Source: Amphiura filiformis
Taxonomy: Eukaryota > Echinodermata > Ophiuroidea > Amphilepidida > Amphiuridae
DNA: 64,000 bases
Reading direction: 5' to 3'
NCBI RefSeq assembly: GCF_039555335.1
Contig: NC_092636.1
Span: 2,413,464 to 2,477,463 of the forward strand
Shown piece after piece: positions 4,456 through 60,173 of the stretch. The translations under genes were made by a program, and so were the position numbers. Under the pieces are notes generated by a model. The model was not told the origin of the DNA. It worked only from the letters and a program-made list of their open reading frames with translations, and searched no databases. Each line of letters opens with the position of its first letter. Position 1 is the stretch's first letter.

Positions 4456-4459
4456 TACT

Positions 4460-6660: not shown

Positions 6661-6731
6661 CCATTATTATGTTTTCAGGGTTATTAGGAGTTAAGAAAAC
6701 CTAATAATGATAATATTGATGAGCTTATTTC

Positions 6732-6832: not shown

Positions 6833-6850
6833 TCAGCCATCCAATATTAT

Positions 6851-11145: not shown

Positions 11146-11182
11146 TTAAGGGGGGGGGGTTAGTTACTTTTTTTGAGATGTT

Positions 11183-11452
11183 TACAATAAAATGATGTCT
11201 CTGTGTTTCATATTAGTGTCAGTCAGTAGCAGTGGCATAACTAGGGGGGAAATATGCCCATGCGCTACCACTAGGGGGGTCGCCAAATCAGCCTCACTTA
11301 AAAAAATATGCCAATTTCATTCCCACACCCCCGTATCTATGATATTCTTGGGTGGGGTAGGGCCTGGCCCCCCCAACTCAACACAAAAGTTGGCAACCAT
11401 GAGAGTTACCAAATCTTTTAAAGGCCCCCTTTGCAATGATTTTTAATGTTGC
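11183..11452 (+). repeat. End of duplication copy 1 with a MITE left end
   Basis: Matches 14386-14650. It contains ATGTCTCTGTGTTTCATATT and then the left TIR of the 1047-1510 family at about 11367-11435. There is no coding evidence. Confidence 0.75.
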
Positions 11453-12201
11453 AGTTTTACTGACTATGCTGACAAGTGATAAAATGTCAGTTGCATAGCT
11501 AGCTTTCCTGTGGAGGGATGCCCATAGAGCTCATATAAAACAGCTCTATGGGGAATGCCCCCCTCCCTCGCCAAATCCACCAAAGATTTCTATATACAGC
11601 TCTATGGGGATGCCAAATCCACCAAAAGTCCTAAAATATGCATGTGCACATTTTTGAGAGAAATAGTCACACGGATTGGATGGTGAAAATGTTCTAGATG
11701 AACCCGAAAAAGGGCAAAAGTCAATCACCCCCCCAAGTCCACTTTCGCCCCACCTTGACCTGCCAAAAAATTGCTTCCCCCTCTTGGCCTACCAAAAAGT
11801 CTTTACCCCACTCCCCCTTTGCTTTGCACATGCTATTTTTATGCAAGCCTAGTGTAGGGAGCAGGGTGCCCCGTAAATGTTTGCCAAAATCCGCTTGTAT
11901 GCCCCATTCGACCTGCCAAAATAGTCTTGCCTCTTTTTGCCCTTAGGGGCTGGCATTCTCTTCGGAAGGGGGGTGTGCAAATTTACAAAAAGTAAAGACA
12001 CTATCTGTGGAGATCTTTGTAACTCACTACATTTTGGTCATCAAAATTTGATATGACCCCCCTTTTTTCTTTCCAAAAATGTATGACCCTCCAGGGACCC
12101 ACCTGACCCCTTCCGAATTTATGACCCTCCAGGGACCCACCTGACCCCCTTCCGAAGAAAATGTCAGCCTCTTAAACCCGTTTATTAGAAAGAAGACAGT
12201 A

Positions 12202-12894
12202 CCCAGCAAACACAAAACGTTTTCGACATCATTCGCAAAAGGTTATAAAAGGTTGTCAGAAAACGTTTACATGTCGGGTTATATAAAGGGTATAGTAAGA
12301 GTATAAAACGTTTTCATAACCTTAAAAAACATTTGTTGATAATCTACTGCTTAGCAAACAAAAATGTTTTACAGAAAACGTTTAAATGTCGGGTTATATA
12401 AATGGTATAAAAACGTTTTAATAACATTCCAAAAACATTCTTGAAAACTTGATACAAAACATTCTAAACAGAATGTTATTTTGGGGTTGGAAACATATTT
12501 TGCGAAAAATGTTTGCCCAAAATATTTTTAATAACCTTTTAAAAACGTTTTCATAACCTTTATATAACCCGACATTTAAATGTTATTAAAAGGTTTTGAA
12601 AAAAACATTATAAGAACATTTCTGTGTTTGCTGGATTCAAATATTTTAACATAATATTATTTAAGTATTGACACAATATTTGGCAAAAATGTTTGCAAAA
12701 ATAGTTTACAATAAAAATTTTTGAAAACATTAAAAAATGTTGTTGTAGTGTGTTTTCATACAAAACGTTTTAAAACGTTATCATGACCTTTATATAACCC
12801 GACATTTTAATGTTATTAAAACGTTTTTACCTAAACCAAAAGCCAAAATATAACTTATTTAAAACGTTTTTAAAACGTTTTTGTGTTTGCTGGG
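12202..12894. mobile_element. 693-bp TIR element with TA target duplication
   Basis: The ends are CCCAGCAAACACAAAACG on the left and its near complement, CGTTTTTGTGTTTGCTGGG, on the right. The interior is a dense field of AAAACGTTTT, ATAACCTTT and CCGACAT modules in both orientations. TA flanks each end (12200-12201, 12895-12896). The paralogous empty site GACAGTAGGAGG is intact at about 3422 and 3839. There is no ORF. This is one of the clearest insertion events in the window. Confidence 0.95.
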
Positions 12895-13342
12895 TAGGAG
12901 GAGAAACAGTGGATTAATTGATTCTTTTTTTTACTTAAGCCTGATGTTGAGTGAACACAATTTTTGTTTTAGTTTTACCAGAGAAGATGAGAAGAATTTT
13001 TTTACTCCACTGATTTTTTAGTTGTTTTCAAATGACCAGATATCGTAAGTATACGTTTTCACGTATAAAATATCGTACGTAGAAGCGCTTTAACACGGAC
13101 TACTACCCTAACCACTGAAATCGGTACCATCTTGTCAGTGGTACGAAGACACGGCATCGTATACGTTTTTGACGTATAAAATGTCGTACGTGGACGCGAT
13201 TTAACACGGGCGAGTACCTAAACCCCCAAAATCAGGACCATTTGAACAATTTTTACACTTTTGACATTCTAACCGACGACGTTGAGGGCACTATTCGGAC
13301 TTGTTTTCTTCTTGAATAAAATACGGTAGATGTGATTTGCTT

Positions 13343-13504
13343 CTTCTTTCTTTCTTCTCTTGCTTTCTTTCTTTCAATTTTTTTTTCCTGCTAGGCTAAG
13401 TTTCTTTCTTCCTTGATGTTTCTTTCCTGCTTGCTTGTTTTCTTTCTTTCTCTCTTTCCTGCTTGCTTGCTTTTCTATCTTTCTTTCGCAGCTTCCTTTC
13501 TTTC
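13343..13504 (+). repeat. CTTT-rich pyrimidine microsatellite (copy 2)
   Basis: Near-identical counterpart of 4283-4455, again directly preceding the minisatellite. Confidence 0.9.
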
Positions 13505-14212
13505 TTACTACTTCATCAATGCCACTGAATATCAGCAGTAGGCCTAGATAACTTAGCTACTTCATCAATGCTAATATCAGAAGTAGATAACTTAGCTTCG
13601 TCAATACAACTATCAGCAGTAGATAGCTACTTCATCAATATCAGCAGTAGATGGCTACTTCATCAATGCCAATATCAGCAGCAGATAACTTAGCTTCATC
13701 AATACCAATATCAGCAATAGATAGCTACTTCATCAATACTAATATCAGCGGTAGATAGCTACTTCATCAATACCAATATCAGCAGTATATAACATAGCTT
13801 TATCAATAACAATACCAGCAGTAGATAGCTACTTCATCAATACCAATATCAACAGTCGAAAGATACTTCATCAATGCCAATATCAGATAGCTACTTCATC
13901 AATACCAATATCAGCAGTAGATAGCTACTTCATCAATACCAATATCCGTGACCAATATCAGCAGTAGATAGCTACTTCATGCCAGTATCAGTAGTAGACA
14001 GCTACTTAATCAATACCAATATCAGCAGTAGACGGCTACCTCATCAACACCAATATCAGCAGTAGACAGCTACCTCATCAATACCAATATCAGCAGTAGA
14101 CAGCTACCTCATCAACACCGTGTATCAGCAGTAGACAGCTACCTCATCAATACCAATATCAGCATGCAGTAGACAGCTACCTCATCAATACAAATATCAG
14201 CAGTAGACAGGA
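13505..14212 (+). repeat. 34-bp minisatellite, copy-2 array
   Basis: Same monomer family as arrays A1-A3 but only about 700 bp. It begins with the same ACTGAATATCAGCAGTAGGC unit as A1 and ends with the same AGCATGCAGTAGACAGC unit as A3. The array has therefore expanded in copy 1 or contracted in copy 2. Confidence 0.95.
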
Positions 14213-14576
14213 TTTTCCCTGCATGATGGGCAAGGGTCAGACAGTATGAAAAGGCCCGCCAGCACAATAAATTTTTTAATTTAATTATGTGTTAATCTTT
14301 ACAATTTATCAACATGTCATTTTATGATTTGATATTTAAGTTTTATAATTATTTGTAAATACTATAACATGAATAAAATATATCATACAATAAAATAATG
14401 TCTCTGTGTTTCATATTAGTGTCAGTCATTAGCAGTGGCATAACTAGGGGGAAACCTGCCCAGGCGCTACCACTAGGGGGGTCGCCAAAGCAGCCTCACT
14501 TAAAAAAAATATGCCAATTCCATTCCCACTCCCCCGTATCTATGATATTCTTGGGTGGGTGGGGGGGGGGAGGGTC

Positions 14577-14932
14577 TGGCCCCCAACTCAACACAAAAGT
14601 TGGCAACCATGAGAGTTACCAAATCTTTTAAAGACACCCTTTGCAATGATTTTTCATGAAATCAACACCCCTTTTCAATGACTAGAATTTCAAACACCCC
14701 TTTGCTTTTCAGTGACACTAAATATTGACATAAAATTGCTGGATTTTCCCCAAGTACCCCTTTTATCCAAATTTCGCGGACAGTGCAAATTAAATACCCC
14801 CTATTTTGCTGATTTCACGGTCAAATTTCGCGGACTGTCCAAATTATATACACCTTTTTTCCCAATTTCGCTGTCCTCGCTATTTGGTAACTCTCATGGT
14901 TGTCAATTTTTGTGTTGAGTTGGGGGGCTGGG
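14577..14932. mobile_element. TIR element, same family as 1047-1510 (shorter copy)
   Basis: The left end CCCCCAACTCAACACAAAAG and its right complement enclose the CAATTTCGC/GGACTGTCC modules. It is about 100 bp shorter than the 1047-1510 copy. No ORF is credible. Confidence 0.7.
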
Positions 14933-15000
14933 GGTAGGGGCACCAATTTCCCAATTTCGCGGTCCTCGCTACTGGTAAAGAAATTGCCCCTATTCCGTGC

Positions 15001-15746: not shown

Positions 15747-18700
15747 CTGAATTATGTGATTAAAACATAGAAATGAAATTATAACATGGCCGATTTAAAA
15801 TTAACTTGATCAAACAGTGACCGACTCATTCATTGTTAACTCACTGAGAAAATAACTCAATCATTCACGTGTTCGCTTGATTGATAAATTCGAATTAATT
15901 ATACACTCGCTCGCTCACCAACCCCCACACCACCCCCACTCACACACACCTATGTCCAGGCGTTCATAATTTAAAAAAAATCAAAGCTGAAACTGCTTGT
16001 ACAAAATTAATATGTCATACATGTACATCGTACCTGTTTAAAAATGACAAAAATAATACTGACAATAATTTGCCGTGACCAGGATTCGAACCTGGGTTAT
16101 TGCGGCCACAACGCAAGGTCCTAACCACTAGACTATCACAGCGCCTTAAGAATATTTGACTTCTAATCAGCTTTGTCGTGCATGTGCAAACAATTTTCAC
16201 TCACTCACTCACTCACTCACTCACTCACTCACTCACTCACTCACTCACTCACTCACTCACTCACTCACTCACTCACACCCCCACTCACTCACGCACTCAC
16301 TCACTCACTCACTCACTCACTCACTCACTCAATCAATCAATCAAACAATGAATCAATCAAACAAACAATCAATCAATATTATTTTACCTATGTGATTGTA
16401 TAGCAATCCCAATGATGACAACACAGATGATAGAGACCTATTCAGTAGAATCCTGGCCTGTCGCAATCCGATCGGTCTAGATAGCCTTGTGTATTGACTC
16501 TCCTGACGAATCAACGTCTTATCCTGACGTTGCAATATTCTTAGAGCTATGGTGAAATACCTGAAAGACAAAATCACCATGAACTCAGTTTCAGTCTATG
16601 TGCAAAATTACTCCCATCTCCCTTTGACTCGTATTCTCCATTCTTCGCAATCCTCCGGGATTCCTCCCGTCTTCTTCTCCCTTTCCATGTTCTGCATTCC
16701 ACTCTTCTGCCTTCCTCTCGTGTTCTACCTTCCTCTTCTCTTCCTTCTCCTTTCGTATCCCAATTTCCCTCCTCACTTCTACCTATACTTCCTCACACTT
16801 CTTCTCGCTTCTCCTTCCGTCTTCTCCCATCCATTCGTCCTTCCATCGTTATTTCCCTAATATTTCGCTCTTTCCCTTCTTCCTTCCTCTCTTTTTTTTT
16901 TATCCTCTTCCTTCTTCCTCACTCTCTTCTTCCCCTTCTGCTGTTCGTCTCCATTCTTCCTATCTTCGTCTTACTTTTTTCATTTCTTCATCTCTCCTGC
17001 CTTCTCCTTTCCTTTCTTCTTCTCTCTATTTCCTTCCTCTCCATCCCTTTTTCTTCTACCTCTCCCTCACCCCTCCCCTCCTCTCCTCACTGCACCTCAC
17101 ACCACCTCGTCTTCCCTCCAGCTCCTCCTGTTCAACCTCTCCTCTCTCCAGTTCTCCTCCCTTTCGAGCTCTTCTCATCTCCTTCACACTACTCCTCACT
17201 TCTTCCATCCACCTTTTCAACTTTTTATTATCTCTACTCTCCTTTCCTCTCCTCCTCGTAAATCCATCACATGAATCACCACCTACCGTTCTGCTTTCTT
17301 GAACTTCCCCGACTCATGCCATACCAATCCAATATGACTGTACAACCATGCCAGATCTATGCTTTCTCCAAAAGGCCTCAAAAAATCCAACGCCTTCATG
17401 TACTGCTGATACGCCTCAGCCATGCGATTCTGCGCCAAAAATAACACTTGTCCAAATGATGATAGCATAATACCGTAATGACGCTTAGAGCGTCTCCGAG
17501 CTGCGTTGCACATCGACTCATAAAATCAACCGATTCTTTCTTCGGAAGAAGAGTCGTGATATAGTACTCAGCGTTGTAAGCAACATCAAAGAAAAGATCA
17601 TAGTTCTCGTCAAGACAATGGACAGCTTCCGAAAGAAGCTTCTGAACGTTGTCTATTTCCATTGTGAACAATGAAAATCGTTCACCGTGGCGCTCATGGA
17701 CTTCCATATGACTCATCTGTTTCAGTAGATGCGCAAAGAAGACACAGAAGCGATTTCGGACTTTCACGTCGGAATTCCGATATAACAGATATAGATCTTC
17801 AAGAAAATGGCGAAGGAATGGCTGGATAGCAAATCGATGCATCGGGGTGTCCACTGTTGAGATGAGACAGTGAGAATGAAGAGGCGACAAGACGTCATGT
17901 TTGGCAAAACTTGCTTTTTGAGAACCCAAGATTGCCGTTGCTGCCTCGGCGCTAAAGGAACCTGGAAAGTACGACAATGTCAGCAAGTCATTTCGGAGGT
18001 GCTTGCCAATGTCGTTCAAAATCATTATCTCTGCTGTCAATGGGCTTACATTCAAGTGAGAATGTGGATCTTGTGGAGATCTTGGAAGGTCTGTCATTTG
18101 TTTTAGCTTCCAACCGACCTCTTTAAGCTTGAGAGGAAGTCCTCCTGTGTGTTTGAAGATCTCCATATAGCAAGTATCTGACAGACAGGTGTCTTTCCCT
18201 GCCACAATGTTCACCAGTTCGATAGATTCCTCGAACGATAAGGGTGGTATATTCCTTCTTTCGATCATTGACAGATTCCGAACGAAATCTATTCTTACTT
18301 GGGTTGTTAAAATCACAAATACATTGTTCGATTTTATTGTAGACAGCTCGGTACACATATCTAAAAACAAATCCAATTGATCATGCGACGATGCGAATGT
18401 CTCTATATTTTCAAATATGAACAGATATTTCTGTTTGGTGCAATATTGTTGCATGTATCGGCAAAAGGTGCCAACTTTTCCGTCTGGTAGGTCTAATTGT
18501 AGTAAATTAGAGAGTTGCTGTACTAATTCTGTAACCGATAAATAAACACGTAGTTGTACTGGGTGTGCAACAATTTTACTATGTGTACGGTCAAAATCCC
18601 CGTGCACAAGTTGGTTTGCAATCTTCGCAGCAATGTATGACTTTCCGCTACCCGCCGGCCCCGAAAGCTCGACAATGCGAATATTGGCCCCATTAAAGTT

Positions 18701-26530: not shown

Positions 26531-26935
26531 ACCTTTTGCCTCTGTCAAATCTATATATTCTCGCATCCAACTCAAAACCTCACTGACGACCTTCACCATA
26601 TTGAAGTAGTCTCCTTTACATACATAATTCTTCCTTTACATACATCCAGATTCACTGAGTCTCGCATAAGAAACGTAGTTGAAAAACCAATACCATATGA
26701 TTATTAATATTATGTGATAATAATAATAACAATAATAATAATATATATGAACATATCTTTGAAATATATATTTATATACTATATATACTATATACACTAT
26801 CTTACATACATGTATATAAATAGTGCAGATATCTTTTGTACAATACCCATGCACACAAGAAAACAAATATACATTTATACATAAAAAATACAATATAAAC
26901 AACAGCTCTTTTGATTGAACATATCACACAGAACA

Positions 26936-27160
26936 GTTCTGAAGAGCACAACATAAAAAAGTTTTCAATTAAATCGTCAGTGTCAGCTAGTCGGAAACAG
27001 TTGATGGCACTTTTCATCACTGTGATAGGAGTTGGTGTACTATAACAGAAAAGTTCTGAAGATCACAACATAAAAAGTTTTGAATTGAGTCGTTGATGTC
27101 AGCTAGTCGGACACAGTTGATGGCACTTTTCATCACTGTGATAGGAGTTGGTGTAGTAAA
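26936..27160 (+). repeat. Two-copy tandem repeat, period 117 bp
   Basis: GTTCTGAAGA(G/T)CACAACA starts at 26936 and 27053, and TGATAGGAGTTGGTGTA closes both copies. The copies differ at about ten positions. Confidence 0.9.
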
Positions 27161-27665
27161 TTGGTCCCTGAAAACAGCTGGAGTCTCGGTGTGGCTTTAT
27201 GATATTGTCAAAAGTATACGACCATTTAAGGATCTTCATTTCAATATCTGATCTGTTTTATATTTTTCTAAATAAAATTTTATTTCCAGAATGAAATAAT
27301 AAATCATTTTTTTCTGGTATTTTAAAATGTGTAAGAATGAAATTAAGAGCTCATAAAGAGCCAATGAAAATAAAATAATAATTTTTGAAATATAAAAAAA
27401 TAAATGCATTTCTCAAGATAAATTGTCACAATCAGATATTGTAATAAATGATGACAGCGGATGAGTTTCTGACTTTGAACAGACTGTAATAGCTCCTGAG
27501 ATGATCTGCCTCAAGGTGAGGCATGTTTGTACTTGAATCTACACTTTGTTCACTACATGTTGGAAACGGTTGACCATACTTCCACACATTAGATATATGA
27601 ATCTGTATGCCTGCCTATTCAGTAGTGAACAAAGTGTACCATAGTTGACGTAGAGCTTCAAAAGA
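27161..27665 (-). other. Probable 3' UTR or downstream flank of the RhoGAP-START gene
   Basis: Lies just 3' of the conserved end of the START coding frame. It is AT-rich and has several possible minus-strand AATAAA signals, including one near 27289-27294. The poly(A) site cannot be fixed from sequence alone. Confidence 0.4.
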
Positions 27666-27779
27666 CTACACTTTTGTTTCTGGTCCTTCTGCCTCCTGTT
27701 TGTACATATCTCTTATCTTTCCTACAATTACGGCCATCATATGTCCGTATGCCTTGTTATACCACTCGGGCATACGCCC
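27666..27779 (-). pseudogene. DLC1: In-frame continuation of START after the early stop
   Basis: 37 further sense codons in the same frame encode RMPEWYNKAYGHMM, AVIVGKIRDMYKQE and a short acidic tail to TAG. Sequence and spacing match the C-terminal START helix of this family, so this was coding recently. Possible explanations are an assembly error, a polymorphic nonsense or frameshift allele, or true loss. A small offset around the stop would give a VDTKG-like reading like the family's VDLRG; that is inference. Confidence 0.75.
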
Positions 27780-27957
27780 TTAGTGTCTATCACGTGAGAT
27801 GTGGGTTAGCCGTGATCTTCCGGAGCCAGCTGGTTCAATGAGAAAACGAGATGCAAGGATAGTACCTCGGATGCCACCAATGGGAGAGCCTTCAGGATGC
27901 TCTATGGATGTGGATACAAGAACGCAGGTTCCTTTTGGAAGATCTGTTCTCCATGAC
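27780..27957 (-). CDS. DLC1: RhoGAP-START exon k: end of START, with early stop
   Basis: Acceptor TTTTGTTTCATCTCAG. It encodes SWRTDLPKGTCVLVSTSIEH, then ASRFLIEPAGSGRSRLTHIS and RDRH, then TAA at 27780-27782. The frame continues unbroken beyond the stop with RMPEWYNKAYGHMM and VGKIRDMY, the family's C-terminal helix, to a TAG at 27666-27668. The four residues before the stop are where the match to the family fails. Confidence 0.9.
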
Positions 27958-30900
27958 CTGAGATGAAACAAAAAAAAGGAGGAAAAATAATTTTAAAAAT
28001 CCATACTTTCAATTTACAAAGTTTATTACTACATGTATGGTTGTTCCAAAAAGTCATTCTTATTTCTTAAATAATTTGTGCAATTATTAACTTCACATAA
28101 CTTTCTAATGTACATGTATGAAACACGATCAAAGGGAATGAGTCACATGACGGCAATTTTCAATTAGTAGAAGTTTTTTACATCATTTTCTGGCAGTTTA
28201 CAAATGCTACATTTTGATGCAGACCCCATCAAAATTGGACATCTGGTTATGGCTGAAAACAATATAAAACAAAAGAATTTGAACATTGTTTTTGCCAATA
28301 TCTCAAAAATAATATTAGGGACATGCGACTCATTCCCCTTAATCATGTCACATATGATGTTGTCCAAAGCACAGTACCCTTATGGACCTACAATATCCAT
28401 TGAAACCTACCTGAGCACACAGTATTCCCTGTTGGGATGAGGCGCCATGGTATTGAACACATAATGCATCACATCACACTGATTACCCAGTTTCTCTACT
28501 ACTCGCCATTTCAATAGGTCTTCATCCCATAAATGCCTGTAATGGGAAAAAAACGGGAGGAATAACTTGTTAATATATACGATCATGTAACATAAATAAA
28601 ATAATAATAAATAAATTTCGGAATTTATATAGCGCTTTTTCCAGAGGATTCAAAGCGCTGTAATTTCGCTGCGTTGAACACAAATTTCTATGTTGAAACT
28701 TTAAGTTTTCTGGGTTTTTTTTTGGGGGGGGGGCAGGGGGGTTTAACAGTCTTTAAGATTAAACAACGTAGTTGTGACTTTGGTGAATACTTTGTAGTCT
28801 ACAACATTGAAGTGAGTTTCCTGAGACTTACTCTTAAAAACATCATTTAAAGCCTTATTTAAGAGAAGCCTGGTTACTTGGAAAACCAGCCATTATTTTG
28901 TCACTGCTGGCTTTGATGGCTCATACTCCAAGCCCTAAATCCAATAAAGTTTTAGGGCAAGAAAAAAAGGGCTATCTTCAAGTCTGTAATTAGCACTACT
29001 TTCGGGCTCTGTTGCTATTAGTTAGTATACTATCCAGAGAGGTTGCGTCAGCGCTCAGAGAGGTTGCGTCAGAGAGGTTGGGTCAGAGGTTGCTACTCGC
29101 TCAAAGGCTCGCGCTCACTAAGTCCTTGGGGGCCATAAACTGTGGCTAGTCTGTAATGTGATAGATAATCATTAAACCTAAGGTATACTAAATCCAGTAT
29201 CTGTTACCTTTCTTTGAGTACTCTGTGTAGTATATCAGCTGGTGGTGCATCCATCTCAACGCTACATTTCCATAACCTAAGCGGATGACCATCTCCAACT
29301 TTCTTGTAGGCTACTTCTACTTGGTCAATGTTTGGACATGCCACCCAACCTTTGAACCTTTCTCTTGATTCCTGTGGGAAACAAAGTATGAACAAAATGA
29401 AAAGTTAAGGCATCAATATTTATCTGCATAATATTAAGATAATCTTACGCTGGCATTCAATTTTAGAAAGTATTATGTTAGAGCAAGGAGTGAAAATAAA
29501 ATGACAATTGAAAGTTTGAGGGATACCAAATTTTCTGTATGTAGCACTCAGCACAGCATATTACTTGCAACACTAAATTTGGTTTGCTGGGCATACGGCA
29601 GATGTAACCCTTTCCCCCCTCACTGTTTTTTTCCCTCCTACTACAACATGCAAACAAAGCATGGTTCCCCTTTTTATGTTTCTTTCCATGGGCTGAACAG
29701 AGTATAAAGCACAGACAGTGATTAAGTAGGCCTGAAGAAAATACCCTGAAATCTGGTAAAAGTGCATGAATTTGGGCTAAAAATACATCCCTGCACAGAG
29801 TATAGCAATGTAATAAAACTTGTTCTTACCTTTAGCACACCCTGTATACAGCTTTCCATATATTTCCTGTAATCACCGCCCTCAGTATCAGGCTTCTGAC
29901 CAAGTTCCTCTAACGTGACTGGCTCACCAAGATCCATATACGAGAAATGACATTTGGACATCAGCTCTTCTGGCACCTAGAAAACACACAATAAACAGGT
30001 AGAAAACATTAAATATTATTTTTGTTTGTCTCAATCTTCCTAACATCTATTTATCATTTCCCAACAATTATCAAGTTCATGAGTGTTTATATAATAGGAA
30101 GGATGCATTCAGTTACTGCAGCTGGACTGCCCAGATAATATCTTGAAATTGGGAGTCATATTTATGTACTCCATTGTAATCCGGTCATTCTAGTAAATCC
30201 CTCTTTGCTCTGCAACACCTGTCAGTTATAATTTTGTTGACATTTCAAAAAATTTACTCAAAACTTCAAGTATCATAAACATTTCTATTTTTGTTAATCT
30301 AATTAATATTTAGGCATTCTGCATTATCAAAGATTAAATTAACAAATTTGCTTAAATTCTGTCAGCTGCCAAAGTTGACTACTTCACAAAAGGGTTCTGC
30401 TCGTGAAATTATATTGCCAGGGAAATATGTTGTTAAATGAATTTGGTTCTATTAACTTTCACAAAAAATTACTTCCTGACACCAAACATTGAGCTTTTGT
30501 GAAAAATGAACAGCTGCAAAAAAGCAACTTCTTTAACCCTCTCCGCGCGGGTGTCGAGTGCGGACGACATGTCAAAAATTTTTAACTTTTTCAAAAATTG
30601 TCAAAATTCAATTTTTCATTACCATATTTGGATTCAGCATGAAAATTGCATTCTAATGAGTACAAACAAGCCAAGTATTGGTTCAGCAGTCCTTGAGATG
30701 GCCTATGTGATATTTGAAAATTTCGTCAGTTTGTCAACATTTAGCGTGTAAAGCATTAAAGCATGTAACTTTGAAATGAAAGTGACACACTTTTGGCTCA
30801 TGGATTACAAGTACTTCCAGCGTTCCACCCAACTTTAATCCTCACTTACCATGAACAACTTCTTGACCTCCTTAATCATAAGTGCTAATGCTTCATTGGC

Positions 30901-33900
30901 TGCTACATTCTCAATCAGTTCTTTCTGATCGGGCTTTCCAATCTGCATCTTGCGTTGTCGCCGAGGGCTCCCTATTCCATGAATTCCAGTTTTGATAGGC
31001 GCAGAGTTGGCGCCGAGTTGGAACAAAGATGGTGCAAAGCACACGGCCAGATTGTAGGCAGTCATCTGTAATGAAAGTTCAATAATTCTAAATTTTAATT
31101 TAAACTCAAAATTTAATTTCCAGACTAGCACAAAATTATACTTAAAATTATATCCAAGCTTTGCTTATGAAAATATGCATGGCAGAAAGAGAGTGTGTAT
31201 TTTGAAGGAATTATCAATTACACATTAGAAACAAAATAATTTAATTTTGCTAACTCAATAAAAAGCTGTTAAGGACAAGCAAGTCATCTTTCATATTTGT
31301 TTGTCTTTTTTTGCCACAAATTATCCATCCCAAGTCCTTGAAACAGAATAATCCAATTTTGTTGCCAAGTTTTCAAAACATAATAGTTCCCAAGCCAGGA
31401 TGAAAATAAAGTTCTAAATTGAATAATTATTGTTTAGCTTCATGCCAAAACATCTGCAATTGTCCCATGCAGACAGATGCATCGCTATAATTATCACTTC
31501 CCAATTAAGACAATGTGATCATAGAAACAAAATGATGATGACTAACCATGGCTAATTGCTTTGATAGACTTTAATTCTTTGTTTATGGATACTAACTATT
31601 AACATAATTCATTCAGTTTGGCAACGAAAAAAGAAATCCCTGTTCTACGGGCCCGACCGACCCAAATTTTGAACAAATTGAGGAAAAAATTTCCTGTACA
31701 AATGAATGCTGATCCAAATTTCGATAAGTTCAGGAATTAATTTTTTTTTGTATTTTCTCAAATTACAAATTTGCAAAATTTGGTGATTTTTGGGTCATTT
31801 CAAAACAAAAAAAAAAGCCGACCGACCGACCCTACTTGAAAGGTCCGTCCGCCCGTAGAACAGGGTTTCTTTTTTTCGTCGCCTTATGGATAGGAACTAT
31901 TAATATCTTCATTTGAATGATATAGGCCCCTATTATTAAACTGGCTCAGTACAAAATTCTTCATCATTATTGATGAGTATACTACCAGATTCCTATTGCA
32001 GAATTAGAGATACTTTGAGGCTACTCTTGAGTACAAGTACATCACCAGTGTTTGTATTGAATGCATGATTCCGATGTGTGTACTCTAATGTGTGTACTCT
32101 AGAGTACCCACACTTCTAAGTACTCAAAAGTATCAATGAAATAGCTGATCCACTGGTGGCAACAATAATATTTTTGTAGTGTATGAAAATTGTTAAGCAT
32201 TTTTTTCAACACACTAGCCATAGCCTGAATTGATGAAAACAAGAAACTCTGAAGTTTGCAAATTATGAACAAATTAAAGCATTCACTTTGTTAACCCCAT
32301 GAGAACTGCCCACGGATTGGCCAAAATGAATAATGTGTCCAATTTTGAACCAATCAAGGAGGGTATTAATAAGATCATCTGCAAATGCAAGTTTGATCAT
32401 AAATAGTTGTAATTGGCAATTGAAGTAAGCATTTCAAGTTCTCAACCAATCAGAAATCCTGTTAGATGACCAGTAGGTTTGAGAATACTGACCTGGTTTT
32501 CATCTGAGTGACTAGCAATGTCACTGAGGAAGAGCAGTAAGGATTGCAGCACCTCCCTGTTTTCATCTGGTAGGAGCATGATGGCAGCTTGAACTGCTGG
32601 CAGTTTCATATCTTTAGGTAGAGCTACGGAGAAAAAGAAGAGGTGTTTTGATTCATTAGGAAAGATGCTGTTCAATTAAGGTTAAATAACAATTAGAGGA
32701 ATTCTGTTTAAAGTGTGTTTGTCGTTAGGTAGAATTATAGAGATATAGAAAATGAAGTGGCTTGATTCATGGCAAATATTTTTCAAAAATTATTTGTATC
32801 ATAAATTCTTGGGGACATAATCTTTATGTACAAATTTGACAATATGTTACAGTTTGGTACATAACTGTGTTTATTGAGCTACATATTCAAACTCTTTTCT
32901 TGAAATTAGTGAAGAACACATGCTTGCATGCACTGGCTGAATATGGGATTCCATAAAAGCAGTTACTATATACTAGAGAAACATGTCTAAATAGCAGATA
33001 AATAAAATATTTATTGGAATCTGCAATTAATCATCCAAACAATTCTCACTGCACTCCTCTGGAGCCCAAATTACACATTGAGGAGAGTGACATATGGAAT
33101 AAAAATATGGGACAAGGTCTGACTTTTAATTAGACACTTAACTGGAAATAAAACTATCAGGGGTTTTTAACATCAGCCAAATTCGACATTGGCTTTTTCA
33201 CGTAGCAACAGGCCAACAGACTTTGCAGACAAATTTGGCCAGCTTTACTTTGACATCCAAAATCTGACATGGATTATTACACAGCCCTTAGTTTTGAGTC
33301 GCCAGAAATTCCATATCAGAACTGATTTCCTGGTCAGTAACTTGTGGATCCACGTAAAGACTTGATTCCACTGGTTGTGTTTGGTACAACTTTGATGGAA
33401 ATAAACTTTTTAATGGAAGTAGATGACATATACTGTTATTGGCCAAGTTAAGTTTTTGGCAACAATACAAGTATAAAGGTACTGATCAACTTGAGTTATT
33501 ATTTTGTAGAAACAATTTTGGAAAATAGCCCAAAAATGCTAAAGAGTTCAGCATATCTTTGATTGCCTCAGGCTCAGCTTATGTGCCACAAAAATCATTT
33601 AGAATTTCACATACTAAAAAAAACCCAAATACTACATAATTTGGTACCCGATCATGAACAAATACTTCCTAATTTAAAATGTCACAGTTCCCTATTGGGC
33701 CTACTGTTGGTGAATGACAGGCTTTTGATAAGGATGATGTTAGGGATTAACAAACTTTCATGGAATGTCCATAGCAACCTGACAAAGATAGGGATCCAGG
33801 AAACAGCCTAGGCTTTGATTAGAGTGAGGCCATCTTGGGAGGCTAGGCAAATTATAAATATACATGTATATATATATTCATTTTTATTACTTTATATTCA

Positions 33901-36900
33901 TTTTTATTACTTTGTAACTTTTCTCCTTCTGAGAGAAGATTTTGACACAAATTTGAAATATGTGGAAAACTGATCACCTACAGAACAGATATTAAATGAT
34001 GAATCCTTTTAACACATGCATTAACCTAATAGTTGAAGTAAATAGGTTAATTCCAGATCACCTTGGCCAAATTCTTAGACATTAGAACCAGGGTTGCTAT
34101 CTCTATTCTGACAAGGCAAAATCCTGATAAATGATATCTCTCTTAATCGTCTTTGCTTTGTGTGGCCATTTTATCATGATTTGTGAAGCATTAGAACAGA
34201 TTAGTTTTCAACTATATAGACATCACAATACATGTCAAGTTTCTGGAACCTTGATTTTCAAGTATTACTAATAATGACAAGCATTTAAATTGGAATCTAA
34301 ACATAAAAAAGCCAACAAAAAGCATATCAATTAGCTGTCCTCCTGTAACTATTCAAGGATTCCTAATAGTCCCGAGTATAAATTATGAGTATTTGCACTT
34401 GAATCTAACTAAAACTAAAACTAAAACAAGAAAGCATAACTATTAGCTGTCCTTCTGTAACTATAATCCCACGGAATTAATTTGAAAACAGAAGTCATAA
34501 TTAAGTACACACAACTGTCTTTTCTGTTTGTTTTACAATTGCAAATCGTACTTATTTATCATCAAATGTTGCGAAATAAGCAAAAACATGTTGTTATCAG
34601 TTTGGCGATACCCGTAATATGATAGTATAAGTTTCATAAATCAATAGGCCAGGATTAGTTGTCACAAATAAGGAAGGAGATCCATGATAATGGTATCTAT
34701 TTGTTTATTCTTCTTATTTAATGGATAAGCAAATTAATTAACTAGGTAAAAGGTATCGGAGACAAAAAATAAGCGTTATTGCCACATGGTTGCAATTTAA
34801 TGTCCAAACTTAATAATTGAATGTATTTTAGTGAGCCTCAAATAAACTCCCACATTTTGATTACATCCTCCCACAATTTTTTCCCACATGCTCAGCAAAC
34901 TGCTTGTTGTCATTGTGGGTTTAATGCAATTTTGCTGATGCAAATGAAGTGATATAGGCCTATACATTCAAACCTTTGTTACCCCAAGCTTTCTATAGTC
35001 TGTCCACATAGAAGTACAAAGTACATAGACCTCGGAAACTGGAGGTATGAGAATAATTATTTCAGTGCAATGCTTCTTTGGTGCGTGCATCAACTGCTGC
35101 GCAATTTGTGCGCCACACTCTTTACGCGTTGTGTCACACTCGAGTGTGACGCAAAGCATCGACCCCCGATTTGGTGTGGACAGACTGTAAGGCACCATAT
35201 TCAGTTCGGTCCTATCCTGCTATCGGTGCCCCAATAGGATCCAATGGCTCTTTCTGTCATACCCTATGTAAATGTTCATTATTGTGCTCAATACAATTTA
35301 TTACATTTCCAAGGTACGATAAAAGGAGCCATTGATAAGGTATCCAGGCACTGATAAAGCTATAGGACCAATCTAAACATGGTGTCTTAAGGTACCAGTT
35401 GGGGTTATTCCATTCTGGAGCTGTATGTACTCCATTCTGGTCCTCATGTGTGACAATTCAATATGGTAGTTTACACATAGGGCTATGGAGAGTCAACATG
35501 CTCCTTTTTATTATTCTATGATGCAAACTTACTTGTGAAGATGGTGATGAAGGTTTCTGACATCTTGGTTGTCAGCAGCGGCTCAGGTAGTTCTCTGAAA
35601 TACTGTTTGAGCATATCAGCGACATCGTAAGCCATCATGCCTTCATAGCTGATGTTATCTAAAAAAGAAAACACAGAAATAAGACTGATTGCTGCGAGAG
35701 TGTTATGACAGTGATCATGTTTCGTCATTGCCAAAAGAAAAATGTAGGAGCAGTAAGTACAGGCTAAGGAAGCATTGTTAACCAGTGATGATAAATTGTT
35801 CAGTTGAATGATGAAGCATAGACACATATGCAATTGTTGATATTTAAAACCTGATAACTGCGCAATGATAAAACAGAAAATGTATGGAGGGATAAATTGT
35901 TATGCAAGACCTGCTGTTCTTGAAATGAAATACAATGAAGATTTGTGGGTAAAAAAATTATGCAGATAAGTAGGCCTCTTGTGCATGTTGACTTTGAAAT
36001 AAGCAAAGCTTCAGTAAATAAATCAGCATTACAAAAGATATTATTTTACATGAGCATGAGACAAAACTCAATTTGTTACTTTTGTATAATGTTGCCAAAA
36101 TTTATAGGCCGTTTCAGAAATCAAAAAACAAACCCATAATAAATAACTATAAATTCAAGAAATGAGAACCAACTGACCAATTTTACAGTAAAATTTTAAA
36201 TTTTGATTTTAAATGTCAATTTGTAAAATTTTAAGCATATTTACCTGGATTGGCCTCATTCATCTTCTTCAGCTGTTGAATTCTTGACCTCACACCTGGT
36301 TTACGGAAGATGCCCACCGCATCATGAGCCGTCCTTCGCAAGTACCTCATAGCGTACATGATGGTCTGTGGTAGAGGGTGTCCTGTTCGCTGAAGGTTCT
36401 GCAGGAGAGGAACGCCAAACACTGTGCGATCTTTGAAATCTGGCGTCTTGTTGCGCTTCATGAATCTTGGCATCATCCTGCAAATTTGTACAAATTAAAA
36501 AGATTATTTTTTTGTCTATCCTTGAAATAAATATTGATTGTAGTTGATATTCCAAACAGAATTTCATTTCAATTATTTACAGGAATATCACAACTTATTC
36601 TCCTAAATAACTGATTGTTGCATCCTGTTTTTAAGGGTGTCAAAGCTGTCCTATACCTTTTGTACAGGGAAGGAGAGGAAAACAATTCTGAAACGGGGGT
36701 GGGGGAATCCTGAAATCAGGAAGAATCCTGAGAAATCACACACTACATCCTTATGCCCTCTTTCTTTTTTAAATGGCTTAAGGTAATACACAATTTTAAA
36801 GTGTTGCGATTTGGTAGTTCACAACATCTTGCGAATGGTAATGAGCTTTGGCAAATATTGCATTGCTCATTTCCTTATGAAAGCGTGTAGAAGAATTCAA

Positions 36901-39900
36901 ATATCACAGAAATAATTTTTAGGTCCTGTGGTTCTTGAGTTATGTTGTAAAGAGGGCTGAAACAACAACACTTTTGTAAAATGTACATAACTCATTAACA
37001 ATAATAAATTAAGCAAGTTTTCAAAATATATAATTTGTAGGATGAACTTTTGCAAAACATCAAGGTGTTATTTGTCAATAATTTATTGATCTAGAGAATG
37101 AAAATCGATTTTTTTGGTTGCTTCGACCAACAACACCTCGTCTACCCTTAAATTGTTCATTCAATAGTACAATAATTCATGGATGTACTAGTCTTTATTT
37201 TAGGGACAGAAAGGGCAAAATTGACTGAAAATAGACTGATTTAGCAGATTTGTTTTTTAGGGGAGGGGGGCAAGCGCCTCCACATGCTTGCCACTGATAT
37301 CAACACCAATAAACAACAAATAAAACATTGCATACCAACTCCATCCGCTGCGATGTGATGCCGAGTGCCTCTCCATCATTGCTGTTAGTTTGAGTAGTGA
37401 AAGTTTGCGTAGTATCATCAACTGGCTAACAGATAGACTGTTGATCTGAAACGGCCTGAAATGTAAATAATTACAAGAGCAATTCATAAGCTATAGTTGT
37501 TACTACAATCTCAAACATAGCATATGTTACACAGTCGATCCCAACATACAACGATTCACTACTGGATCGGACTGTAGAAATGTGGATTATATCCTGAAAA
37601 ACAACTCTATCAGAAATACATTTGAACAGACAGTCTGTGATTATAAGTATCCCAATCTACCCAATACCCAGTTCAATAATATATACAGCTATCTGACCTC
37701 ATGGGCTATTGGGTACACTGACTCATACCTTTGTACATAGTACAATGTCTAGTATGCATGTACTTTTTAAAACTTTGCTCTTGAAGTGAGGCTAAACGTG
37801 GGTAGCCATTGAGTGGGTGGGAGACACAAGAGAGTGTGAAATCATCACAGAGCAGTATTTTCTCCTAGGTATTGCAATGTCTTTCTTCAATCACAGTAAG
37901 AAGCTGATACTCCGCCTACATTAAAGTCGCCCATTTTCTCTTGTAAGTCTCGATGTCACGATTCCCCTCGTTATTTATTCAATTGTTGCGTGGGATAATA
38001 GAAGAAGACATATAAACCTTCATTTTTTATTCACAAGGTGACTTATCCTTGTTTGAATTCATCAGAATTTTATTGTCCGAACATCTCCAGACTTGATTAA
38101 CTTAGGTGCATTAAGTTGATATATGGGTGGACAGCACATTTAAGCTTCTTTCATCTTAACTCATCCTATGAAATGAGATAGTTACAACTTGCTGTGGGAT
38201 GTTGTAAAGCATGACCAACACCTACTTAACCTCATGAGAACTACCTGCCGATTGGCCAAAAAGAAGTTTTCATTATCAATTGGCCCAATCAGCAACATTG
38301 TAGGAATAATTTCACCACTCAAAATAATTGGGATGAATTATTTGCAAAGCTCCATTCTGATTGGTGATTATTAAGTGAAGATATCATGAAATTGACCAAT
38401 CAGAGGCAATGTTAGATTGGCAGGTAGTGCTCAGGGGTTAAAGGCAGATGACATGCCCTATTTTTTCAAACTCACACCATTTCACTCTTAAATATCAAAT
38501 ACTTTTCATTTTCAGTCGATAACATTATGGTGCAAATGGTTATGTCCTGTTGAACTTTTCATTTTTAGAATAGAGCTAAATATCATTGACACATTCTGCT
38601 AAAACCAGATGGAACTGCCATAGGCACCTACGCAAAAGGGTAGGCTACCTGCTTTTAACTTATCAATTGGATAGTTATCATATATCAAAGCAGTCCTTGC
38701 AATTCAAAATTAGGTGTAATCTGAATTCCTTTTTTCTGTGCTATTATATTAGCCCGGGGTCTTTCCCTGTTTAAAGGTATACGAGGATGTGCCACGATTT
38801 TGGGGTAGGCCTACCTTTTCAACGATTTTGGTATATCGATGGGTGGGTTTTCAGTGAAGACCAATGCACCCAACTGGGACAATTTGGCAAAAGTGCCCTT
38901 AAAAGCACCCAATTAGGGCAAATTTGGGTGATTTTTCTATGTTTTTTGTTGAAAATTGGTATACAGTCTGATGGGTAGCAAAAACAGGAAAAAGTAGGTA
39001 TAGAGAAAGTCAGCATCTGAAAATCTGTGTGGCACATCCCAGTACTAATTATTTTGAAGAACCCCCCTGGCTATTAGCTGCACTTTGGTACAAACCACCT
39101 GTTTCAATCTTTGTCACAAAGCAGGTAGAATACCTGAAACCACTAGAATGTAAATAATCATCAGTCACATGAAATTTTGAAGTTTCAAACTGGGTTATCA
39201 CAGCTGCTAGACTCCCTTACTTTTTTAGGCAAAATTTCTATTTAATTCCAGAAAATGTGTCAACTAAATGATTTTTTGTACAAACAATGATCAAAAGTAT
39301 TGCACTTTTCCCATTCCCGATCATTAACCATGCACAAAATCCCATTAGCTTGTTGAATGCGTGTTTAATAGACCTGAAATCTGCACGCAATAATAATCCT
39401 TTTTGAAATCAGGTAACAGACGAATTTATCGCTGAATTCCACATCCATCATACATGATCATTGAAAATTGGTTTTACCATTTGGGAGCAGGTTTATTTAC
39501 ATGATCAATTACATTTAAAGATTCTCATAGGACTAGTACTTGCCCAAAACTGTTATTTTTGTTCTTGAGCACTAAAAAAATGACATATTAAAAAAATATT
39601 ATACAAAAATGTTAACAAAATTGAATATTTTTCATGCTGTAATTGGCTATGGCCTACTTAAACAGCAAGCTGCTGCATCTTTCTCATTTTGTTTGAATGT
39701 GAATTGGAGCAAAACCCAGAGGCGATAACTTTGTAATTACAGATATATACATAACTCTCTGTGGCAGGGGATTTATTGGCAGCAATTGCTTGTGTCGATG
39801 TGAAGATTTGACAACATGTATTCACACGCACTTGAGATTTTTAATTGACGCACTGCAATGTAACAAATTGGTTATCCAATTTGTCAACTTTCAAGAGAGA

Positions 39901-57900: not shown

Positions 57901-60173
57901 TGATTGGATAACTCTTACAGAATAAAACGTGATCTTGATACAAAATCATCCAAGTGGCACAGTTCATGTCCCATTTAAAAGTGTTTATGCACTCTTGAGT
58001 GGTGTTACAATTGCAAAAGAGATAATATGGAGTCCAGTTTGTAATTGATGGAATTTAACCTACCTGTGGGTGATCTCATTTAGTGAATACCAAGGATTTT
58101 AAAAACAAGCTGATGGAAGAGTCTTGTGCACTTTTCAAAAGACAATCACAAAACTTAAGTTTCGCAACATAATGTAACATATGTAGTGACAGACCTAGAT
58201 ATTTGGCTTTCAAATTAAGGAACTATATGTAGTACACTCTCCATACACAAGCAAGAAGACAAAGTTGTATGAAAAATCAGGAGAATTTTTCATTTTCAAC
58301 CAAATTCCATCATTCCATCAAAGCAACCAAACCATCCAATTATCTCTTCTAACCTTGACTCCATGTTGGTAGATATTAAACAATTTCTGAGGTATGGAAA
58401 ATAGGCCAACCTTAATTGATGGAATTTACCAAGCGCCTTTGATAGATGATGCTACCAACTGCTACACTTGAATCCATCATAATTGAGATAAATATTTTTG
58501 TTGATTTGCTTTGATCAATCTGGCCTTTGCATATAATGAAATGAAATAGTATTAATAATAAAATTTCTGTAACTAATATGCTTGAAATATCACCTCATAT
58601 ATTAGATTTTATTGCAAATACTCTCAGCATGTTTCTCAATTGGATAGATAGTAAAATAGTAAAGCCCAGAAGTGAAACAGCACTGCGGGTGCCTGTTTTG
58701 GGCAACTTCTAGAGCAACAGGAATCGGATTAATTAAAAACTTTGTGCTGGGTTGGAGGTCAATGCAACAACCTCATACTACTACACCAAGTTCTGTTCCC
58801 ACTGCATACTGATACATAGGAGCTTAAAACTAACTTTTTGGGTATGACAATATCAAGTAGTTAAATCAATTTTATCAAAAACAATGTACTTTAAACTACT
58901 ATTGATTTCAAAATCTATTGAAAAGTTTCGCAGGGACTTTTGTAGGTTGTGTTAAAATTACAACTTTTGATCTTGACATGTTTCTGTGTTCGGATCATCA
59001 TAGAGTAACTTTTGTGCAAACTTTTTCAAAATCTCAATTCCCTCGGAAAATCCTGAAAAACCTTTGCAATTGAATCGCTGATGACGTATCACAATATTTA
59101 CTGCCTACATTGAATCTGGTCGAATTGCCCTGTAGAGATGTGCGCATCGGTGCTACGTCACCGGGGATTCAATCGCAATTTAGGCTTTCACCATAATGGT
59201 CCATTGGCGTGCTAAAACGCCCTATTCAGGAAGCTTAACAAATCCAGACAGATTAACAAAATAGGCTTAGTATGTCATAGATATTCACACTATCTGGCTC
59301 TGACAGCTTCAGCCTATATTTTATCAACTTGAAGATCTCTTCGTTTCCTGGTTTGGGGAAAGTGGCTTCCTGTGCCATCCTTGAAGACGAGACAGACAGA
59401 TAGCAAGGTCTATGTGCTGTGCACATCTTCACGGACTATTTCAACAAAAATAGGTTGCTTCTTTTGTATATGGGCATAAACTGTACGATAAATCAAAATT
59501 TGTCTCAATAATATTTTAACATATGTGCAATAATTAAAAGTGATTGATCTCAAAAATCACTTGTAGTTATTACAAAATGTAATTTCTTGTCGAGGATTTT
59601 TGCCAAAACTGCTTAACCTGAATCTGAAAAAAATATGTAAATTGGGGGGGAATATTTACGTCAAATTTTGCATAAAGATAGGAATATTTCCTATAAAATC
59701 TCTGAATGCAGAGGCAAAAATGCCAACATTTTCCCAGAATGTGCTTTCTTCTCTGCATGCAGAGGCAAAAATGCCAACATTTTCCCAGGAACAAGCTCCC
59801 TGTATTCCCCATTTTCCAGGCCTGCAGAAACATTTTGACAAAATGTTCATAGGTCTTTCCCTCAAGATTTCATTCCAGTAAGCTTACCTGTTTGGTCTTG
59901 TGAGTGAGTTGCCAACACCTGAATCCCTTCTCTCCCTCCACTGGTGCCTGTTCTGCATTGCGGGGCTGTTATCCTCATTAGATTCGGCCGTATCGTCGTG
60001 CTCACTGGTATCGTGACTCAGTACACTGATCCCGAGGTCTGTCTCACCATGCTTGCCATGGGCTAAGTTTGGAGAGGGAAGGGGCGACGGAAGTGGCGAG
60101 GGGAACGGTGATGATGTATGCGAGCAGATTGGAGACGAGACTTGTGACGATGTTGATGTTGATACACTTTCCA
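27780..60173 (-). CDS. DLC1: DLC1/STARD13/STARD8-type RhoGAP-START protein, 3' eleven exons
   Basis: Eleven exons joined by GT-AG sites with matching phases give 597 residues: a Ser/Pro-rich linker (1-95), a conserved RERRDSGVGNSLTRP segment, a basic RIRWHSFQKSHRPSLNS segment, RhoGAP (about 178-365) and START (about 400 to the end). The RhoGAP arginine finger is Arg216 in GIFRKPGVRSRI and the conserved Asn326 lies in NLAVCFAPSLF. The family accelerates GTP hydrolysis on RhoA-like GTPases at focal adhesions and the membrane; START binds lipid. The N-terminal SAM domain and focal-adhesion region are not in the window. Reading ends at a TAA (27780-27782), 37 codons before the expected end. Invertebrates generally have one gene for the three vertebrate paralogues, so the symbol is a family label. 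Confidence 0.93.
28411..28536 (-). CDS. DLC1: RhoGAP-START exon j: START core
   Basis: Acceptor TTTTCCCATTACAG, donor GTAGGT, 126 bp. It encodes HLWDEDLLKWRVVEKLGNQ, VMHYVFNTMAPHPNREYCVL. Phase matches exons i and k. Not visible as a standalone long ORF. Confidence 0.95.
28615..28676 (+). repeat. Dispersed repeat fragment in the last-but-one intron region
   Basis: TTTATATAGCGCTTTTTCC and TTCAAAGCGCTGTAATTTCG match the start of the 9285-9700 repeat. Confidence 0.65.
29035..29092 (+). repeat. Short tandem repeat AGAGAGGTTGCGTCAG
   Basis: Three imperfect copies in the intron between exons i and j. Confidence 0.75.
29208..29371 (-). CDS. DLC1: RhoGAP-START exon i: START core
   Basis: Acceptor TTTGTTTCCCACAG, donor GTAACA, 164 bp. 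It encodes ESRERFKGWVACP, VEVAYKKVGDGHPLRLWKCS and PPADILHRVLKE, the typical START strands and helix. It ends after two bases of an Arg codon. Confidence 0.96.
29830..29976 (-). CDS. DLC1: RhoGAP-START exon h: start of the START domain
   Basis: Acceptor TGTGTTTTCTAG, donor GTAAGA, 147 bp in phase 0. It encodes VPEELMSKCHFSYMDLGE, VTLEELGQKP and YRKYMESCIQGVLK, matching the family's RhoGAP-to-START transition. Confidence 0.95.
30850..31065 (-). CDS. DLC1: RhoGAP-START exon g: end of RhoGAP and linker
   Basis: Acceptor TTTCATTACAG, donor GTAAGT, 216 bp in phase 0 at both ends. It encodes MTAYNLAVCFAPSLFQLG, with the conserved RhoGAP Asn, then a linker with GKPDQKELIENVAANEALAL and MIKEVKKLFM. 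Confidence 0.96.
31620..31884. mobile_element. TIR element, about 265 bp, in the intron between exons f and g
   Basis: GGCAACGAAAAAAGAAATCC followed by CTGTTCTACGGGC on the left has a near complement at the right end. GACCGACC-type motifs lie just inside both ends. No ORF. A decayed relative lies at about 25160-25395. Confidence 0.75.
32295..32490. mobile_element. MITE related to 38230-38437, reaching the exon f donor
   Basis: TTAACCCCATGAGAACTGCC and GGATTGGCCAAAA match the left end of the 38230 element. The right end is degraded but ends close to the exon f donor at about 32492. TTAA flanks the left side. Confidence 0.45.
32493..32623 (-). CDS. DLC1: RhoGAP-START exon f: RhoGAP helices
   Basis: Acceptor TTTTTCTCCGTAG, donor GTCAGT (non-optimal). 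It encodes LPKDMKLPAVQAAIMLLPDE, then NREVLQSLLLFLSDIASHSD. The final codon is complete. The intron just 3' appears derived from a MITE whose right end abuts the donor region. Confidence 0.95.
32624..35532. other. Intron between exons e and f, no features seen
   Basis: AT-rich. A small hairpin element at 34993-35190 lies within it and is listed separately. No alternative exon was recognised. Confidence 0.55.
34993..35190. mobile_element. Small TIR element, about 200 bp
   Basis: CTATAGTCTGTCCACATAG on the left faces GGTGTGGACAGACTGTAA on the right. An inner CACACTCGAGTGTG palindrome is present. No ORF. Confidence 0.55.
35533..35658 (-). CDS. DLC1: RhoGAP-START exon e: central RhoGAP
   Basis: Acceptor TTCTTTTTTAG, donor GTAAGT, 126 bp. 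It encodes YEGMMAYDVADMLKQYFREL followed by PEPLLTTKMSETFI, the highly conserved LKxYFRxLPEPL core of RhoGAP. Confidence 0.96.
36245..36477 (-). CDS. DLC1: RhoGAP-START exon d: RhoGAP N-terminal half with arginine finger
   Basis: Acceptor AAATTTGCAG, donor GTAAAT, 233 bp. It encodes PRFMKRNKTPDFKDRTVFGV, PLPQTIMYAMRYLRR and the catalytic loop GIFRKPGVRSRI. Its Arg in FRK is the arginine finger inserted into the GTPase active site. It ends MNEANPG plus one base. Confidence 0.96.
37336..37455 (-). CDS. DLC1: RhoGAP-START exon c: helical segment before RhoGAP
   Basis: Acceptor TTACATTTCAG, donor GTATGC, 120 bp. It encodes PFQINSLSVSQLMILRKLSL, then LLKLTAMMERHS and SGWSW, in the order of the family's conserved region preceding RhoGAP. 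Same phase at both ends. Confidence 0.93.
38230..38437. mobile_element. 208-bp MITE with TTAA target duplication
   Basis: TTAA at 38226-38229 and 38438-38441. The left end CCTCATGAGAACTACCTGCC pairs with right-strand CCCCTGAGCACTACCTGCC. It lies in the intron between exons b and c. Confidence 0.8.
38784..39040. mobile_element. Possible TIR element with GGGATGTGCCAC ends
   Basis: AGGATGTGCCACGATTTT at the left faces AAAATCTGTGTGGCACATCCC at the right. The short interior has CAATT and GGGCAAATTTGG repeats. Target duplication not resolved. Confidence 0.55.
39041..41560. other. Intron sequence (exons b-c) without recognised features
   Basis: AT-rich. A short GA-rich stretch (39895-40015, GAGAGAGA and GACAGACAG) is the only simple repeat noticed. 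No exon with family similarity is seen. Confidence 0.5.
41564..41708. mobile_element. 145-bp hairpin MITE
   Basis: Left GCCTAAAACTGAATTTATAC followed by ATCGCTCAGC faces right GCTGAGCGAT-type complement ending AACTTCAGCCTAA. Inner CAATTGG and CCAATCG arms also pair. No coding content. Confidence 0.75.
42921..43084. mobile_element. 164-bp MITE with 30-bp TIRs
   Basis: TTATAATGAAAGACAGAGAT followed by AAAAAGACTA faces TAGTCTTTTTATCTCTGTAT, then TTCATTATAA, differing at one position. The interior includes CTGACGTCAGACG. It lies about 0.6 kb downstream of exon b in the transcript. Confidence 0.88.
43662..43727 (-). CDS. DLC1: RhoGAP-START exon b: 66-bp basic exon
   Basis: Acceptor CTCTTTACAG, donor GTAAAT. 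The 66 bp encode RRPRIRWHSFQKSHRPSLNS, nearly the vertebrate DLC1 segment just before the RhoGAP region. Both junctions have the same phase, so skipping would keep the frame. It lies between introns of 16.2 kb and 6.2 kb and is too short to appear as an ORF. Confidence 0.93.
44909..45133. mobile_element. 225-bp TIR element
   Basis: GGTTCGATCTTTGGATCGAC followed by CGTCGATG faces CATCGATGTTCGATCGCC and AAGATCGAAC. AT-rich interior without ORF. Confidence 0.7.
45477..46561. mobile_element. TIR element with internal repeats, spanning the assembly gap
   Basis: TAGTCGTGTTCACAT (45477-45491) and its exact complement ATGTGAACACGACTA (46547-46561) bound it. TA at the ends may be the target duplication. 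Inside, GATGGTCAGCATAAGTTC and AACTTCCGCCAGGCGTAA recur on both sides of the gap, so the gap probably falls in a tandem or collapsed segment. Confidence 0.75.
45744..45943. other. Assembly gap of exactly 200 N
   Basis: The round length suggests a placeholder whose true size is unknown. ORFs reported across it are meaningless. Confidence 0.99.
48702..48810 (+). repeat. 50-bp tandem repeat, two copies and a partial
   Basis: GATAGACAGAC(A/T)AGCCCATG starts at 48702 and 48752. CACACACCCAGGTGATGG closes each copy. Confidence 0.9.
50705..50930 (+). repeat. Dispersed repeat, copy 2 of 2
   Basis: Direct counterpart of 23404-23620 about 27 kb away, sharing CATTCATTGAATGACCTTTG and GGGATGAGGCCATTGTGG. 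Confidence 0.85.
53645..53725 (+). repeat. 27-bp tandem repeat, three copies
   Basis: Three units of GGTAATAAAATAATAATATT followed by CATTTTA, the third with one substitution. Confidence 0.95.
55255..55400 (-). repeat. tRNA-derived SINE-like repeat
   Basis: On the minus strand, GGTTGTGGGTTCGAACCCCA is a good B box, preceded by ATGATCACAAGG and followed by TGTGTCCTTTGGCAAGG. This wording is common in invertebrate tRNA-related SINEs (recollection). No intact cloverleaf. Confidence 0.65.
55938..55978 (+). repeat. 12-bp tandem repeat ACTAGCTTACTT
   Basis: Three to four units at the boundary of AT-rich intron sequence. Confidence 0.85.
56143..56382 (+). repeat. 120-bp tandem repeat, two copies
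   Basis: AAAATGC(T/A)CCGATTG starts at 56143 and 56263. ATGATCCTTATGACATTCTA and TTTAAGGTCATTAAGGGGT occur in each copy. Confidence 0.92.
59067..59182. repeat. Imperfect inverted repeat with CAATTGAATCG arms
   Basis: TTGCAATTGAATCGCTGATG and GACGTATCAC on the left face GTGCTACGTCACC and GGGGATTCAATCGCAATT on the right. This could be a decayed MITE. Confidence 0.5.
59708..59789 (+). repeat. 51-bp tandem repeat near exon a
   Basis: GCAGAGGCAAAAATGCCAAC, then ATTTTCCCAG, at 59708 and 59759. It lies within 100-180 bp downstream of exon a in the transcript. The overlapping ORFs are artefacts. Confidence 0.9.
59888..60173 (-). CDS. DLC1: RhoGAP-START exon a: Ser/Pro linker with RDSGVG motif
   Basis: Acceptor TTTTGTCTTTTCAG, donor GTAAGC. 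It encodes a low-complexity stretch with repeated PSPLPSPLPSP, then an acidic HDTSEHDDTAESNED patch and RERRDSGVGNSLTRP, which matches the vertebrate DLC1 family in position and sequence. It starts on the second base of a codon, so coding exons must exist upstream. It ends after two bases of a Ser codon. Confidence 0.9.

Follow-up and report, generated by a model that had tools for sequence, protein, structure and literature searches.

The DLC proteins, in which a RhoGAP domain is followed by a START domain, form a known tumour-suppressor family. Their invertebrate relative in Drosophila, Crossveinless-c (Cv-c), is described as a protein with SAM, RhoGAP and START domains (PMC9678365), and it is likened here to the gene under study by that description, not by sequence. 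In the experiments reported by the same source, Cv-c deprived of START does not rescue testis development in flies. The C-terminal helix of START domains is described as lining the cleft that takes up the ligand, and its displacement or unfolding is proposed to accompany the loading of lipid (PMC3127847). Homology modelling of DLC1 and DLC2 places conserved residues of this helix in contact with helix 2 (PMC7662654). Another described system is that of compensating frameshift pairs, in which two short opposite offsets lie near each other and, in the set presented in PMC8935012, the frame remains open. A literature search found nothing joining DLC1, RhoGAP and sea urchin.

The window, i.e. the whole analysed stretch of 64,000 nucleotides of Amphiura filiformis DNA, contains on its minus strand an ordinary animal gene of the DLC (RhoGAP-START) family. 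The ten exons modelled for it, spanning 60173 to 27666, were joined in frame, giving 1841 nt (Table 1). The exon borders were picked by eye at AG and GT, and all nine introns have GT/AG ends (9/9). The model begins at exon x1 and the N-terminal part of the protein lies outside it; by analogy with Cv-c, a SAM domain would be expected upstream of x1, perhaps beyond the window. The intron between x1 and x2 is 22 kb long and contains exactly 200 N (45744-45943), presumably a scaffold gap. The joined x3-x6 query matches PDB 3KUQ (3kuq_A), the RhoGAP domain of DLC1 / Rho GTPase-activating protein 7, with E 2e-68 over 165 residues and no gap; the two differ by ordinary divergence, and no break is seen in this part. 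Exon x3 alone reaches 6.6e-05 and 23.3 bits against Pfam RhoGAP, slightly below the cut-off of 24.5. START comes after RhoGAP: the product of x8-x10 up to the break matches the START domain of STARD13 / DLC2 (PDB 2PSO, chain 2pso_A) with E 1.8e-65 over 150 ungapped residues, and scores 43.7 bits with Pfam START against a cut-off of 22. As sequenced, the read frame does not extend to the last START helix, since a TAA precedes the part which encodes it. Close relatives of the gene were found neither in viral_contigs nor in genome_contigs; a match at 43% identity in a Bacteroidota MAG of genome_contigs (L001), overlapped by a 381-aa ORF in another frame, and two 16-residue matches in viral_contigs (L002, L003) were judged to be due to chance.

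Table 1. Exons of the DLC-family gene and features around the internal stop, in window coordinates
Feature	Position	Strand	Content	Basis
Exon x1	59888..60173	-	serine-rich linker, end = RRDSGVGNSLTRPNR	open frame, AG/GT borders by eye
Exon x2	37336..37455	-		AG/GT, frame kept
Exon x3	36245..36477	-	RhoGAP start	joined frame; Pfam RhoGAP; 3kuq match of joined x3-x6
Exon x4	35533..35658	-	RhoGAP	joined frame; 3kuq match
Exon x5	32493..32623	-	RhoGAP	joined frame; 3kuq match
Exon x6	30850..31065	-	RhoGAP end and linker	joined frame; 3kuq match
Exon x7	29830..29976	-	linker ahead of START	joined frame
Exon x8	29208..29371	-	START	joined frame; 2pso match of x8-x10 to break
Exon x9	28411..28536	-	START	joined frame; 2pso match
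Exon x10, last coding	27666..27957	-	START end with internal stop	2pso alignment, frame comparison
Frame-shifted segment	27776..27790	-	IDTKG in frame +1	frame comparison with 2pso_A
Internal TAA	27780..27782	-	in exon x10	
Conserved tail past stop	27666..27779	-	37 residues, 19 identical to 2PSO, then TAG	

The TAA is the single internal stop of the joined frame, and none occurs elsewhere in the ten exons. Read in frame, x10 (minus, 27957-27666) gives ...GSGRSRLTHISRDRH, TAA (27782-27780), GRMPEWYNKAYGHMMAVIVGKIRDMYKQEAEGPETKV and TAG (27668-27666); around the break, ...RSRLTHISRDRH, stop, GRMPEWYNKAYGH...EGPETKV, TAG stands at equal spacing with RLTHICRIDLKGHSPEWY of 2PSO. It had been claimed from the letters, in what is called here the sequence-only reading, that an in-frame stop cuts the START domain of a RhoGAP-START gene, that similarity is lost just ahead of this stop and that an intact conserved tail lies past it. 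All of this is borne out, as identity to 2PSO amounts to 32/54 ahead of the break, 1/5 in the break codons (RDRH-stop) and 19/37 past the stop. The tail sequence given in that reading is also present in frame, except for an extra residue, G, between the TAA and RMPEWY. The likeness to STARD13 thus consists of an ungapped match up to the break and of a tail which matches as well, and the difference is that 2PSO has R-I-D-L-K-G where the Amphiura gene has R-D-R-H-stop-G. With the five break positions entered as X, the alignment of x10 with 2pso_A has no gap at the break; its sole gap, one extra 2PSO residue, is located further along. The tail alone, as a 36-aa piece, hit 0 Pfam families, being too short for a match by itself. 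Its intactness argues against an old pseudogene.

The adjoining frame was said to read VIDTKG, and it does so in frame +1 at 27793-27776. In the comparison of x10 with 2pso_A a shifted frame outscored the read frame in 6 of 92 five-residue windows, which start at 27797-27782 and favour frame +1 in five cases and +2 in one. At the centre of the break IDTKG of frame +1 scores 20 against IDLKG of 2PSO, and the read frame scores -6. Outside codons 50-64 the top score in frame +1 or -1 was 4 (154 scores, from 77 five-residue windows in two frames each), and a score of 20 in either of these frames was obtained in 3 of 200,000 trials with seven random codons drawn from the gene's own usage. The motif D-x-K-G occurs also in STARD10, which together with 2PSO makes up the PDB relatives found, and thus in 2/2 of them. 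Judged by its letters against 2PSO, the frame pattern of x10 is 0, then +1 for approximately five codons, then 0 again. Two putative one-base offsets of opposite sign, about 12-26 nt apart, account for the internal TAA; from our reading of the frame comparison they would lie at about 27797-27791 and 27779-27771. Because I-D-x-K-G is one base out of frame, two opposite offsets and not a simple nonsense change are indicated, so that of the two causes which the sequence-only reading had offered for the stop the compensating one-base changes are supported and the nonsense change is not. The pattern is that expected of two nearby, mutually cancelling indels of a length not divisible by three, as in the pairs of PMC8935012, with the difference that here a stop stands between the offsets.

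From the stop, the frame pattern and a gene otherwise intact within the window, all of which are observed, we infer a technical cause of the two offsets: the TAA arises most likely (with a probability of roughly 0.7) from one local consensus or assembly error that would have produced both of them, and the real gene reads through. The error may have come from noisy long reads or from two alleles collapsed into a single sequence, and the animal's own DLC gene would then be read normally, without the stop. An assembly error, which the sequence-only reading had set against its own proposal, appears as the likeliest explanation of these letters, and as biology the truncation is probably not a real feature. 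In support, the rest of the DLC gene in the window is clean, the tail is without decay, the window holds the 200-N gap, and an apparent one-base frame break is found also in a second gene. Moreover, a second offset would not be expected under selection, because the stop sits between the offsets.

This second gene, of NB-ARC/TPR type, is encoded on the minus strand at 18862-15088; ORF A carries the NB-ARC domain (2.6e-08) and ORF C the TPR repeats (8e-21). ORF A, of 488 aa, passes into ORF B in another frame, with an apparent switch between 17528 and about 17468. ORF B gave only weak matches in PDB (best E 0.18), and against Pfam TPR all its matches were below the cut-offs, the best being 1.7e-05 with 25.3 bits vs 30.1. 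By codon usage, the frame of ORF A was top in 10/10 windows down to 17493; below this point the frame of ORF B was top in 8/11 and the third frame in 3/11. The training codons included those of ORF C, of the DLC exons in the given frame and of ORF A as far as 17600; with ORF A among them, the upper windows partly score themselves. Codon usage gives weak backing to a frame break there. The break between ORF A and ORF B may reflect a second sequence error, a genuine pseudogene or an intron whose donor lies upstream within ORF A. When three breaks were placed at random over 4090 nt (the 1841 nt of DLC exons together with ORFs A, B and C, with ORF A taken from its upstream stop), 3.0% of trials put two of them no more than 20 nt apart; if there are indeed three breaks, the DLC pair thus probably has one local cause.

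Such a single cause would also fit one complex mutation, which counts against the reading of the TAA as an error. So does the fact that homopolymers in either offset bracket do not exceed three bases (the longest is three G), long homopolymers being the commonest site of errors of this kind. In long-read bacterial assemblies the leftover errors are reported as mostly of homopolymer length (PMC8812927). As a precedent for an error, in a trypanosome long-read errors are described as chiefly indels which truncate ORFs; in a collapsed assembly of it, allelic variants close to each other caused reads to be misaligned and erroneous indels to arise (PMC8445201).

The main rival is that the letters, which are present in the sequence as given, represent a genuine recent allele, in which two linked one-base changes, perhaps one complex mutation, place a stop before the last START helix. 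It is considered unlikely. The intact tail fits a young allele, and real compensating frameshift pairs were described in 624 candidate genes of vertebrates and insects, reduced to six after stringent filtering, i.e. they are rare (PMC8935012). However, the work described there retained only sequences without in-frame stops, and here the stop persists; the second change rescues nothing, therefore chance or a single event would be needed. In addition, as START is required in Drosophila Cv-c according to PMC9678365, a fixed loss of it would be costly.

Counted from the alignments, the stop corresponds to residue 199 of the 237 in the 2PSO chain, so if it is real the C-terminal START helix would be lost. 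Nonsense-mediated decay is expected to spare a transcript whose stop lies in the last exon. Slightly less probable still than a young allele in general is the reading in which the letters are true and this animal or lineage carries one complex mutation with about five codons shifted and a stop, the START helix lost, the RhoGAP intact and the GAP uncoupled from the lipid-binding domain. Due to the roles ascribed to the helix (PMC3127847, PMC7662654) and the findings described for Cv-c in flies (PMC9678365), a real allele would by analogy be expected to lose START function, with an intact RhoGAP, in line with the damage predicted in the sequence-only reading. It would be a natural case of a DLC protein in which the GAP function is separated from that of START, and this separation, as these sources describe, has already been studied in flies (PMC9678365) and in cancer (PMC7662654). 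With the TAA taken as a sequence error, the locus serves mainly as a warning: when a conserved motif persists in a frame shifted by one base and the tail is intact, this points to a frame error and not to an evolved truncation, and no reads are required to recognise such an error.

The simplest change of DNA would be a plain nonsense substitution in a frame that is otherwise correct, with one codon altered and the family's own spacing kept on both sides. Such a substitution is very improbable, as the in-frame D-R-H is unmatched in 2PSO (1/5 identical over RDRH-stop) and I, D, K and G are all matched in frame +1, at the score of 20 vs -6 which random codons attained so rarely. Still less credit is given to a functional stop with ribosomal readthrough, by which short and long START forms would be made; readthrough is reported from metazoans and the tail is conserved, but the lost I-D-x-K motif would stay lost, and the 100 nt past the TAA have no unusually stable fold (z -1.29, with 23/200 shuffles as good). 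An alternative last exon or an unusual splice which skips the segment is equally far-fetched, because x10 keeps the family spacing on both sides and leaves no room for an intron at the break, and tblastn of both x10 halves against the window returned only x10 itself and three weak matches (E 0.13-0.31), with no second copy of x10 found there.

Several other features of the window can be mentioned. Positions 1-14949 are dense in direct and inverted repeats, with some pairs more than 98% identical. By BLAST, the three listed pairs above 98% identity differ, over 895 columns, by 5 mismatches and 8 gap openings; by MAFFT, the same three have 13 mismatches and 7 gap events, with one pair misaligned. 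MAFFT was applied to seven repeat pairs, the other listed rows coming mostly from the tandem arrays. Five of the seven gap events fall within runs of C or G, where natural variation occurs as well, and little weight is given to the indels of repeat pairs as a gauge of sequence error. Directly past the TAG of the DLC gene, in the presumed 3' UTR, there is a hairpin on the minus strand (27540-27638) with perfect 17-nt arms (27540-27556 and 27622-27638); the folding of 27525-27660 beats 200/200 shuffles (z -3.54). Downstream of the gene, 26928-27158 consists of a tandem duplication (period 116-117 nt, 89-91% identity). Finally, a tRNA-His (gtg), recognised also by Rfam with 63.8 bits, is located on the minus strand at 16071-16142.
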